From assembly GCF_021130785.1 (NCBI RefSeq), contig NC_060213.1, forward strand, positions 94,666,501-94,730,500: a DNA stretch of 64,000 bases, in the 5' to 3' direction. Below are positions 17,268-60,161 of the stretch, one piece after another. Position 1 is the first letter of the stretch; every line of letters starts with the position of its first letter. The notes under the pieces were generated by a model, which was not told the DNA's origin, did not search any database, and worked only from the letters and a program-made list of their open reading frames with translations. The DNA is from Homalodisca vitripennis (Eukaryota; Arthropoda; Insecta; Hemiptera; Cicadellidae). The position numbers and the translations under genes are program-made.

Positions 17268-17390
<123 letters not shown>

Positions 17391-18230
17391 ATAAAATAAA
17401 AGTTAGATCACTGTTTACAATAAAACCATTCACAACCAAAACTTCTACGACAACAGATGAACAAAAACTGATAACTCTTCAACAATAATAATTTGATTTC
17501 CTTTGTCGAAGAAAAGTCGGAGCAGAGTAATCAACGCTTCGAAGGGTAGTTGGTGCCCTTTAAGTGTTTTATTGTTTTACTTGCTGTCATTTTCATTTAT
17601 TACGTATTGTTATTGCTGTTAATGTTGTTTTATTACCTTAGCGTTGTCAAAAACTATCACTCAAGGGGCTGTTTTATTCCATTTCTAACTCTTGATCTCT
17701 AAGTCTAAATGACCGTACGATATCTTACGAAATAAATAACCTATACACTTCAAATATCTAGGAAGCTCTATTTGTATGTAAGCAACATCGAGTTGATTGC
17801 AAAAAAAGAAATTAAATTAAATTTACTTTACTCATATTAGATTTCAAAGGTTAAATGCATTACATGTTGCCTAGATATTGTAGTACATATATCAAATTTT
17901 GTAACTTGGTGAGTAAAAGAATATTGATTCAACAGTGTTTTGAAACCCAAACTATGAAGACAATTTTCAATGCATTTCATAACGCTCGTAAAGTAGTCAC
18001 ATAGCTTAAATATTCCTCAAGTTTAAAATCCTATCATGCACTTACGTTGTCTTAGCCAAAGATTCGAGAAATACCCAGTGAAAAACTATTCTAAAAAGTA
18101 TTCTGATCACAAGTTTTTCTACAACAAGCCTGGATGCGATAACCTTTAACGATATTTTAATGCCGTAAAGAGTTTTATTTAGTTTAAAAGTTCAACATAT
18201 TTTAACTTGATTTAAATAGTTAAAAGTGAC

Positions 18231-41081: not shown

Positions 41082-41332
41082 TTAAGAGCATTTTTAATTA
41101 AATTTTATACATCAAATTTGACATTGCGTCTTGTCCCGACAAGCAATATAAATTAATAGGCCATAATTATTACGTGTAATTTCAAAAAAATTGTAAATAT
41201 ATTTTCTGTAGATGTCAATACTTTTATATAATACATTGTTTAGTAAACAAAGTTATTTTGAATTAATTTTCAAACCAAATATTTGTTTTAAACAACCTAG
41301 GTATCAAATTATGTAAGAGGTATGTAGGTATT

Positions 41333-56252: not shown

Positions 56253-57123
56253 GGAATTACATTTAAAAAAATTGTAATGGTGAGTCTAAACATCACTAAT
56301 TAAAAGAATCTTAAATTTTATAAATTATACAGTGCAAACGTAATAAATCTTTAATTATAACACACTATACTAACTTTTTTAATTATGACGATGAATTTAT
56401 TGAATTAATTAGAAACTATAAAATTATATTATTTTAAATCACGTATGGAAAGGTTCTAAAAGGTCTATAATGTATTATGTTGTGTAAAAGGCGGCAGTTA
56501 AGGGATTTGACGAAGTCTGCGATGCGTGTTGTACGTGCGTTGGAACTCTAACAAAGAGAAAATAGATTTATTTGCCCTTTGCTGAGGATGGTTTCATCCA
56601 TTAAGTCTGTAGTGTTCTGTCTACTGTCGTCTGAACTGGCTATTTGAGCAGATTTTATTCAATAAATGTAGTAGTCTTATAATCTTTTATGTAAACTACT
56701 GATTATGGAAAGGTTAAAATGGAACAATCTAATCTAATTGAGGAAAAGGTATAACTATGCCATGGTGTGTTTTGCAAAATATGTTTCGTTGAGACTGGAT
56801 TGAAAAATTTAATTCTACACACTCTAACATAATTATATAAATTAAAGTTTGACAAAACTTTAAGTGTTTTATTCCCTTAGCAGAAAATGAAAATTGTTCA
56901 AGCTAACTACATCTTAGGCTCCTATGATTAAGCAAAATCCATATATAACTCTTATTTAATTTAAAATTTAACATCTAAATATAAGCCACCAGGCTATAGT
57001 AAGGATAGGTATATAATAACTTGTTTAAGCACTAACACTAATTAGTCCCATTAGTACATATAATATAACATCAAAGATTATTATATTTATATTTATTGCA
57101 TTCTACGATACAGTTTGTTTATA

Positions 57124-57457
57124 CAGGGTGGATAAAAAGTTGAACAGCTACCCCTCTACTTTGTTTGTTAAACAATTATTGTTCCGGTATCACTGGCAAT
57201 TATTTTGCATGGCAAAGACATCTGTAGTTTTAACAATTGTATTAAGCTCTTTAAAATAAGAGATTACTTGCGAGGGTGTTTTAAACCATTTAACATCTTT
57301 TAGTTGTCCTCAAAATCCTGAATTTTTGGTAAATTTAAAACATTTTTAGAATCACCAAGTAAAAAAAATTCCTTTCCTATTTCCATCACTACTAAATGGA
57401 AGGTATCTATTTAGAAACATTATAATAGAAGTTTTAGAATAAAGTAAGTACACCCTG
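57124..57457. mobile_element. Possible short MITE with CAGGGTG ends (copy B)
   Basis: Better preserved than its partner at 16736-17050, with exact 7-bp inverted ends CAGGGTG/CACCCTG. It is preceded by TA but followed by TTTA, so the target duplication is uncertain. Confidence 0.4.

Positions 57458-57678: not shown

Positions 57679-57725
<47 letters not shown>
57679..57725. repeat. (CA)n(TA)n microsatellite at the mariner insertion site
   Basis: About 13 CA then about 10 TA units, ending in the TA that abuts the mariner left end. It corresponds to 17270-17390 in copy A. Confidence 0.97.
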
Positions 57726-58175
57726 CAGGGTGTATATTATGTCTGGAAACACCCAAATATATCCTTTAATAATTTAAATATAAATTTGAAACCTCTTACA
57801 ATCGTGATAGAGATTGGGCATCTACTTTTTGGAACAATGTTTTGTTATGTCACACCAACGGGGGACGTTCCTGCCGAGGGTATCGTGAATATTCTTAATG
57901 GAAGCCTATACCTTGTGATACATAATTTTAAAGGTAATAGCTTACTGAATTGAATGCCACAAAACCGCATCTCAAAGGAATTATTCTATCAGAAAATAGA
58001 GCATTTTTAGTATTGAAAATTTACTGATGTTCAACAATGTAATTTTAACATGGTTCTTGCCACAAAATGTGTTACACTAATTTTTTAGCATTTTTTAAAT
58101 GTTCAATTAAAATAAAATAAACAATTTATTTTTAAGCTGGTTTCATTAGTACAAATTTACCAGTTTTTATTACAA
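57726..58175 (+). repeat. Mariner left terminal inverted repeat
   Basis: Complementary to 59658-60101, from CAGGGTG to about CAGTTTTTATTACA. Only occasional mismatches and one-base indels separate the arms. Confidence 0.9.
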
Positions 58176-58479
58176 TGAATAAAACTTATGAGTCACTTTC
58201 TCTGATTACTTATGAATCTGTACTGGTGTTTTCCAGTCAGCAGGAAGGTTTTAAAGAGACAAAGGTCACTAGCCTATGAGAAACATTATTGTGTTATTAA
58301 TCATCTGGTCTACAGGTTTCAGTTTGTTGAGCATGGAGCTTTCACTAGACAGGTCTAAGCTTGGGAATTACAAATGGACAAAGGTCATATCATTCCTGTC
58401 GAGTTAATCAGTGTCTCTGAAGCATTGCTGCCCAACAAGTTATCTAATTACAGTAGTTCAGTTTTTATTTGGCATTTTA

Positions 58480-59594
58480 ATGGAATTGTCTGAAAGAGAA
58501 CGAATTACTCTGTTGATGATGCGAGGATATGGCGATCGTCAAAGATCTTATCGGGAAGTTTGTAATTTGTTTAATGACACTTTCCCAGAAAGGAATCCCA
58601 TAAGTGTTTCAACAATATCAAAAACTATTGAGCGTTTTGAAATGACAGGGAGTGTACGTAATCGGCCAAAGTCGGGTAGGATACAATCTGCACCAGATGA
58701 AGAACATGCACTAGATGTTTTGCAAACATTTATTGAAGACCCACATACATCGCTCAGAAAAGCTGCACAGCAACATGATATGCACCCTATGTCTGTGAGT
58801 AAGATTTTGAAAATTAATAAATACAAACCATTTAAAGTTCATTTAGTCCAACAGTTAAGTGAGGATGATTACGACAGAAGAGTTGAGTTTTGTGAACTTG
58901 TGATGCGCAAATGTGATGACAATAGAGATTTTCTGACCAACATACTATTTTCTGATGAGGCAACTTTTTTTCCTAAATGGCAATGTTAACAGGCACAATT
59001 GCCGTTACTGGGCTAGTGAAAACCCACATTGGATTACTGAGTCCCATTCACAGCAACCACAAAAACTGAACGTATGGTGTGAAATTTTAGGTAACAAAAT
59101 TGTTGGACCCTTTTTCATCAATGGAAATTTTAAATGCCGAACTTTACTACAATATGCTCCAAAATGAAATAATCCCAGCTATTCAAATTGCATCAGGAGA
59201 ATACTTTGATAATGTATGGTTTCAGCAGGATGGTGCTCCACCCCATTATGGGAGACAGGTAAGAGAGTATTTGGATTTAAGGTTTCCTCATAAATGGATT
59301 GGCCGAAGAGGAGAAATCGAATGGCCTCCAAGATCTCCGGATTTGTCACCAATCGATTATTTCCTATGGGGTCATTTAAAATCCAATGTTTATAGAAGAA
59401 AGCCTCATAATTTGGAAGACCTAAGAAACAGGATTATAGAGGAGATTGCTTTGATAACTGAAGAAATGTTAGGCAACTCTGTCGAATCATTTTACACAAG
59501 ATTGGCTCATTGTCAAACCGTAGAAGGAACACAGTTCGAACAATTGCTTTTGACACCAAATGCAGGTAAAACGTTTGTTGTAAGACTTTTCTAA
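58480..59594 (+). pseudogene. DD41D mariner-family transposase, two frame breaks
   Basis: About 370 codons, full length for a mariner transposase. An N-terminal helix-turn-helix region reads VCNLFNDTFP…SVSTISKTIERF, then a second DNA-binding helix region follows. Catalytic residues: D in LFSDEATFF, D in WFQQDGAPPHY, D in SPIDYFLWG, with 41 residues between the second and third, hence DD41D. The C-terminal end is VVRLF. I chose the ATG at 58480 (MELSERERI) over an upstream in-frame ATG at 58411 because family proteins start near this block. The frame breaks at about 58970 (after a run of T) and about 59130 (run of T) are single-base changes in or next to homopolymers, so they may be mutations or sequence errors. 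Confidence 0.9.
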
Positions 59595-59657
59595 CAGTAT
59601 ACATTATTTTCTATTTGTAATAAGAAATCAATAACATAAGTATTTCCATAATTGTAC

Positions 59658-60099
59658 TGTAATAAAAACTGGCAAATTTGTGCTAATAGAACCAGCTTAA
59701 AATGAAATTTTTGTTTTATTTAATTGAACATTTAAAAAAATGCTAAAAAATTAGTGTAACACATTTTGTGGCAAGAACCATGTTAAAATTACATTGTTGA
59801 ACATCAGTAAATTTTCAATACTAAAATTGCTCTATTTTCTGATAGAATAATTCCCTTGAGATGCGGTTTGTGGCATTCAATTCAGTAAGCTATTACCTTT
59901 AAAATTATGTATCACAAGGTATAGGCTTCCATTAAGAATATTCACGATACCCTCGGCAGGACGTCCCCCGTTGGTGTGACATACCAAAACATTGTTCCAA
60001 AAAGTAGATGCCCAATCTCTATCACGATTGTAAGAGGTTTCAAATTTATATTTAAATTATTAAAGGATATATTTGGGTGTTTCCAGACATAATATACAC

Positions 60100-60101
<2 letters not shown>
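59658..60101 (-). repeat. Mariner right terminal inverted repeat
   Basis: Inverted partner of 57726-58175. It ends in CACCC directly against a TA repeat, two bases short of the left arm. Confidence 0.9.

Positions 60102-60161
<60 letters not shown>
60102..60161. repeat. (TA)n microsatellite right of the mariner
   Basis: About 30 TA units, then ATAATAAAATAAAAG as in copy A at 17387. It probably grew from the TA target duplication and the original TA tract. Confidence 0.97.

Follow-up and report, generated by a model that had tools for sequence, protein, structure and literature searches.

The 64,000-nucleotide stretch of Homalodisca vitripennis DNA analyzed here (the window) contains a 2.4-kb element that is, with a probability of about 0.88, a young, high-copy DNA transposon of the Tc1/mariner superfamily belonging to the DD41D type with long terminal inverted repeats (LTIR). 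The kind itself is not new, as long-armed DD41D elements are already known from aphids. The assignment would extend the long-TIR DD41D group to a leafhopper, at a copy number far above that in the aphid paper and with many open, closely similar transposase genes. The element is otherwise an ordinary young DNA transposon; its noteworthy features are how large and how recent the burst is, the division of the arms into two zones, and the junctions with TA runs. It also makes two questions testable in one animal, namely whether RNA silencing is provoked by long inverted arms and what keeps the two arms alike.

Table 1. Positions, in the window, of the element, its parts, and the corresponding empty site.
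Feature	Position	Strand	Remarks
Whole element, LTIR-type DD41D transposon	57726..60101	+	Ends compared with 28 intact copies
TA target-site duplication, left	57724..57725	.	TA on both sides in 25/28 intact copies
5' inverted arm	57728..58174 (447 bp)	+	Outer ~362 bp near-identical to 3' arm, innermost ~85 bp more diverged
3' inverted arm	59658..60101 (444 bp)	-	From the arm alignment
Transposase gene	58480..59550	+	Likely start MELSERE at 58480; 356 aa when intact; three frames in window copy
First catalytic Asp codon (FSDEATFF)	58954..58956	+	Invariant in 50-sequence alignment
Second catalytic Asp codon (QQDGAPPH)	59229..59231	+	50-sequence alignment
Third catalytic Asp codon (SPDLSPID)	59355..59357	+	41 residues past second Asp
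AATAAA, possible poly(A) signal	59661..59666	+	Just inside inner edge of 3' arm; putative function
Left-junction microsatellite, (CA)13 then (TA)10	57680..57725	.	
Right-junction TA microsatellite, 58 nt	60102..60160	.	
Empty site, copy A	17271..17400	.	116-nt (CA)n then TATAATAAAATAAA, without element

The copy number was determined using searches of the whole H. vitripennis assembly (2.30 Gb in 14,901 contigs). The original prediction had proposed a search for other genomic copies with the same ends, and such copies were found in abundance: a 41-nt pattern of the element end (up to 2 mismatches) occurs at 1146 + 1152 = 2,298 places, and an 80-nt pattern of the ORF start (up to 3 mismatches) occurs at 510 + 503 = 1,013 places, where the reversed control gave 0 in both cases. 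The 100 ends that were listed are all on contig C1; 62 of them make 31 pairs and 38 are unpaired, and the pairs consist of 25 spanning 2,367–2,481 bp and six spanning 920–1,668 bp, the latter with internal deletions. In the protein search with P0001, a DUF4817 protein of Homalodisca liturata, 106 loci were scored among 42,052 first-look candidates; 102 of these contain no stop and four contain one stop, and 26 share the top score with 100% identity to P0001 over 391 aa. A second query, P0003, gave 114 scored loci at 67–68%, many at the same places as the P0001 loci. Judging from these sequence counts, the family comprises about 1,000 closely similar copies with more than 100 open transposase genes.

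The pairwise substitution among 19 intact copies has a median of 0.34% (171 pairs, 0 of which are identical over the full length), where these copies are the top-scoring ones and are hence biased to youth, the whole family being more diverse. The window copy differs from the 19 copies by a median of 0.55%, which agrees with the young age predicted for it. These values point to a mobility of the family that is recent or may be ongoing. The identity of the H. liturata protein to 26 loci fits a very recent spread, either before or after the split of the species. P0001 probably derives from a transcript, and a H. liturata transcriptome is mentioned in the H. vitripennis genome paper (PMC8496328).

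When the first 715 bp of the element served as a DNA query, 40 of 477 candidates were scored, from which 39 copies besides the window copy were retrieved. An intact ORF was present in 0 of the 37 copies measured in this set, nor was it present in the window copy; the DNA search skips words that are common in the genome, and its set is biased, seemingly toward error-rich copies. The reading of the family as dead, which this set had suggested, was overturned by the 102 of 106 loci found open in the protein search. L018, one of the two copies left unmeasured, is at a place that was scored open in that search.

As shown in Table 1, the element is bounded by TA and carries two long inverted arms. 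In the 28 intact copies (a set that leaves out L059, L070, L071, and L073, for which one end was not found in the retrieved sequence), the canonical ends are TA/CAGGGTG...CACCCTG/TA, where the slashes mark the borders of the element and TA is present on both sides in 25 copies. The commonest intact length elsewhere in the genome is 2372 bp, and the lengths among the 19 intact copies range from 2346 to 2374 bp; their arms are 447/446 bp long in 10 copies, and both arms are within 443–448 bp in 17. In the window copy, the best local alignment of the arms pairs 447 with 444 bp at 96.7% identity, and the comparison of 57728–58180 with the reverse complement of 59652–60101 gives 436 identical columns out of 455, gaps counted. 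In the repeat search these arms appear as four gap-free pieces, 141 nt (99%), 95 nt (100%), 171 nt (92%), and 60 nt (85%) in length, and pieces of such size and identity are not due to chance. The arms thus match far beyond a few dozen bases, as expected from the predicted length of about 450 bp with high identity. Internal transposase sites (IR/DR) were considered as the reason for the long arms and were rejected, as the 5' arm of one intact copy contains no good second end motif; no repeat of at least 10 nt was found inside that arm.

The outermost TG of the 3' end, which is present in 28/28 intact copies with both ends retrieved, is missing in the window copy, where CACCC runs into the TA run starting at 60102 and the right-hand TA falls inside this run. 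One or both terminal bases are also missing at TA-run junctions at the 5' ends of L021, L023, and L050 and at the 3' end of L041, as at 60101 of the window. The loss is possibly the result of slippage at the junction or of sequence error.

The comparison of the two arms within each copy divides them into two zones. In the pairwise alignments of the 28 intact copies, the outer 362 bp show 0.7% mismatches (median 2.5 per copy, range 0 to 8), and the inner 85 bp show 8.7% mismatches (median 7, range 6 to 9), to which gap columns add a median of 3. The window copy, with three outer and seven inner mismatches, fits this pattern. A MAFFT alignment of all arms had given an inner divergence of 13–20% with about 20 fixed columns, a value inflated by misplaced gaps; the pairwise comparison gives 8.7%, with 7 substitutions and 3 gap columns. 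The inner substitutions are the same set at the same coordinate in 22 or 23 of the 28 copies and are mostly shifted by indels in the others; since these differences are common to the copies, they predate the burst. Only one column of the outer zone (249) has a different majority base between the arms, and this column is polymorphic.

This pattern suggests that, in the founder of the burst, one arm was copied onto the other and the outer parts became alike in this way, for example through template switching as a gap was repaired. The alternatives are selection acting on the outer arms and a homology between inverted arms that may simply weaken toward the inside; the inner zone is also short, and part of it is A-rich. 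Copy L038 is rearranged and has a 5' arm at both ends, where about 765 bp of the 5' part meets, head-on, about 2,075 bp in the reverse orientation; such a copy with two 5' arms is expected if repair can switch between arms. Conversion still going on between the arms left no visible signal: 0 minor alleles in the outer zone are common to both arms of a copy, against 25 found only in the 5' arm and 28 only in the 3' arm, a comparison with little power (permutation mean 0.12).

The transposase of the window copy, read through its frame breaks, is 370 aa long, with spacings of 90 and 41 residues between the three Asp residues (DD41D). The closest database protein among the matches listed is P0001, with 99% identity over 96% of this read-through. 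Database homologues at E up to 0.001 number 3,193, and the second Asp spacing among the 120 of them listed is 41, the value given in the original prediction, in 119 and 40 in one. The Pfam search on the three window pieces placed DUF4817 above and DDE_3 below the cut-off; PF01359, which every Mos1 relative among the 120 listed carries, was not among the matches at E up to 1 for these three pieces, which were searched in place of one whole protein. The AlphaFold model, based on 50 sequences, has a mean pLDDT of 79 and a pTM of 0.58. The first 35 residues of the 391-aa frame, upstream of MELS, are of low confidence in the model, in accord with a start at MELSERE. The comparison of the model with known structures using Foldseek matched Mos1, SETMAR, and Sleeping Beauty (best E 1.4e-15), with TMt values of 0.73–0.88 for the catalytic-domain chains.

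A DUF4817-type helix-turn-helix domain together with an RNase H-fold catalytic domain bearing three Asp residues would constitute a DDE/D transposase, which would bind the ends and cut the element out; the excised element would then be pasted at TA, usually within alternating TA runs. Such cut-and-paste activity is assumed here from what is known of the family.

The TA duplication and the DDE/D RNase H-fold and helix-turn-helix domains found with Pfam and Foldseek place the element in the Tc1/mariner superfamily. The original prediction had called it a mariner, a name that is not supported in the strict sense: the spacing is 41 against 34 in mariner (DD34D), PF01359 was not found in the three window pieces, and the arms of 447/444 bp compare with a published mariner range of 13–34 bp (PMC5490172). 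A quick tree was built from 46 rows, made up of 30 of the 120 DD41D homologues, 15 of the 120 Mos1 relatives, and Sleeping Beauty; in it, the 15 DD34D proteins split off on a branch with an SH-aLRT of 100. This tree covers the DD34D and DD41D part of the one proposed earlier. Sleeping Beauty is placed among the DD41D rows on a very long branch (4.95); with this branch and the quick method, no placement relative to Tc1 is claimed. The superfamily, the TA target, and the fold of the catalytic domain are common to the element and to mariner DD34D elements such as Mos1 and Mariner-2_DF; the latter, described from the fire ant, also shows a young burst, with 332 intact of 857 copies (PMC6307670).

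The closest likeness is to the LTIR DD40/41D group, which Bouallegue et al. (2017) described in aphids, beside rosa and apart from mariner DD34D, as elements of more than 2.3 kb with TIRs of 460–466 bp (PMC5490172). According to the same description, Apismar5.1 of the pea aphid is a DD41D element of 2307 bp with TIRs of 466 bp and an ORF of 370 aa, and Apismar5.2 is a DD40D element of 2423 bp with TIRs of 460 bp; Zhang et al. (2016) is cited there for the DD41D "Lsra" elements. Compared by this published description, the present element looks like a leafhopper member of the group, as Apismar5.1/Lsra LTIR elements and the present one have in common DD41D, a length of about 2.3–2.4 kb, arms of about 450–466 bp (447/444 bp here, slightly below the stated ">460"), the TA duplication, an ORF of about 356–370 aa, and internally deleted derivatives. 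It differs from Apismar5.1 in the terminus (TCACCAATTT... in the latter), in having about 1,000 copies against one listed, and in its leafhopper rather than aphid host. The arms, judged unusually long in the original prediction, are unusual for a mariner or rosa element, but arms of this kind are what defines the LTIR DD40/41D group as published (PMC5490172). For bees, DD41D/VS elements of 1024–2258 bp have been described (PMC8472432). Homalodisca was not found in the open-access papers listed on DD41D, LTIR, Lsra, or long TIRs, and neither "mariner" nor "Tc1" occurs in the main text of the H. vitripennis genome paper (PMC8496328).

The element could alternatively belong to the rosa clade and have gained its long arms separately from the LTIR elements of aphids, in which case "LTIR" would denote a recurring form instead of a clade. 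With rosa elements such as Crmar2 and Apismar4, it shares DD41D and the TA duplication, and its GGGTGT terminus is common with Apismar4.1 (PMC5490172, Table 1); the ends begin with CAGGGTGT, close to the Apismar4.1 terminus AAGGGTGTCTC and unlike Apismar5.1, and the two arm zones of differing divergence indicate that arm length and identity can change. On the other hand, the aphid rosa elements have TIRs of 27–32 bp and lengths of 1.3–1.36 kb (PMC5490172), and the length, the ORF (356 aa from MELS), and the arm size of the present element are close to those of Apismar5.1. An independent origin is rather unlikely on this balance, and the element is treated here as LTIR type. The state of the window copy is also open to two readings, as its transposase ORF is split over three frames. 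Relative to one intact copy, the window copy has 12 substitutions, seven one-base insertions, and one one-base deletion, in keeping with the near-intact transposase that had been predicted. The same comparison for 35 indel-rich copies (those of the first 39 that passed a length filter, with L009, L018, L031, and L038 left out) gives 777 insertions, 667 of them of 1 bp, 70 deletions, and 400 substitutions, against 15 insertions, 4 deletions, and 189 substitutions for 27 intact copies. An elevenfold excess of insertions, outnumbering even the substitutions, is typical of noisy long reads and is not usual in evolution. Because this excess of 1-bp insertions appears both in the window copy and in the 35 others, the frame breaks look largely like assembly error, and the window copy may be intact in the insect itself. 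That the copy is truly dead, with frameshifts from biological decay, would account for the three frames needed, and its 10 substitutions relative to the closest of the 28 intact copies indicate that it is not the youngest; decay is nonetheless unlikely in view of the insertion excess, to which seven of its own eight indels conform. The error pattern carries a practical warning that copies may look decayed in this assembly and yet be intact in the insect.

The window also contains a direct repeat, with copy A at 701–22431 and copy B at 41082–64000 (spacing about 40.4 kb), which differ by 2.0% substitution over 20,351 aligned bases with 102 gap openings. In copy B, which holds the element, the alignment to copy A stops at 57705 (17298 in A) and resumes at 60161 (17388 in A), and the part of A between these points contains none of the element, so that its predicted absence from copy A is borne out. 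The repeat is either a tandem segmental duplication or a pair of unmerged haplotypes. In the latter case, the element would be a heterozygous, segregating insertion rather than a difference between paralogues, which is a real possibility, if somewhat short of an even chance: the divergence is near the published H. vitripennis heterozygosity of 1.2–1.7% (PMC8496328), but both copies are on the same contig in the same orientation with no N in the window, and a true tandem duplication would look alike. The lone empty site also bears on the TA runs at the junctions. Among 25 reconstructed empty sites, an alternating AT run of at least 6 is present in 23 and one of at least 20 in 11, compared with 5.5% and 0.2%, respectively, of 6,633 TA sites in a background consisting of one 64-kb window. 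Long TA runs flank the 28 copies on both sides in five cases, on the left only in six, on the right only in five, and on neither side in 12. These one-sided runs, together with the short TA run at the empty site, make growth at the junction a serious rival to target choice: the runs could have grown after insertion, seeded by the TA duplication, without any target preference. At the filled site the TA runs measure 20 nt and 58 nt, compared with just a short TATAATA next to (CA)58 at the empty site of copy A. Insertions without long runs still lie in short alternating AT, as the 23 of 25 sites show, and targeting of TA microsatellites is reported for plant elements (PMC8449440); growth after insertion is plausible without being the favored account.

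In C. elegans, Tc3 and Tc1 are DD34E elements, and the arms of Tc3 are about 460 bp long. The arms of these elements, like the present ones, could pair in read-through RNA. Read-through RNA of Tc1 has been reported to fold on its arms and to feed RNA interference (PMC3878927); such silencing based on double-stranded RNA is reported for Tc1 and is only a possibility for the present element. The computed duplex energy for the arms of one intact copy, taken as RNA, is −724 kcal mol−1, which indicates strong pairing, and it is plausible that the long arms form a hairpin of double-stranded RNA. The AATAAA in Table 1 is the first AATAAA or ATTAAA past the stop in the intact copy L048, the next being near the outer end of the arm, and its exact 21-nt context is present in 24 of the 28 intact copies. 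The mRNA of the element itself could end at this candidate signal, before most of the 3' arm; AATAAA is common by chance in such AT-rich DNA, and the motif is a lead only.

A more far-reaching proposal, which we regard as quite improbable, is that the arms are dynamic and not a fixed relic: the founder would have copied one arm onto the other over the outer ~362 bp directly before the thousand-copy burst, and the inner ~85 bp would have kept the older differences together with a poly(A) signal at which the mRNA would stop short of the pairing part. If this were true, renewal of the arms and insulation from self-made double-stranded RNA would let a long-armed element escape silencing and explode in number.

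Several minor observations were made in addition. In L062, a second element end adjoins the intact copy, apparently in the opposite orientation, with a short TA stretch between them. The left flanks of L012, L052, L057, and L076 contain CACCCTGTATA shortly before the insertion, as if a similar-ended element were at the same place. A scan of viral contigs as transfer vectors with P0001 gave two pattern matches, neither of which was confirmed, and a tRNA search (bacterial setting) and Rfam gave no match in the window. The mitochondrial COX1 of the assembly (446 aa used) is 100% identical to the H. vitripennis protein; the next matches listed are at 92%, and no full-length H. liturata COX1 is among the 120 names listed. 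The COX1 matches in the genome comprise 31 stretches (E up to 0.001), of which the large contigs C1–C9 carry 22, and these represent many nuclear copies of mitochondrial DNA. At 57122–57457 of the window, and also from 16724 onward in copy A, a second TACAGGGTG end occurs, and a CACCCTGT about 330 bp downstream may be its partner; this TACAGGGTG end is present in both A and B, and the region is perhaps a short non-autonomous element that is older and has related ends.
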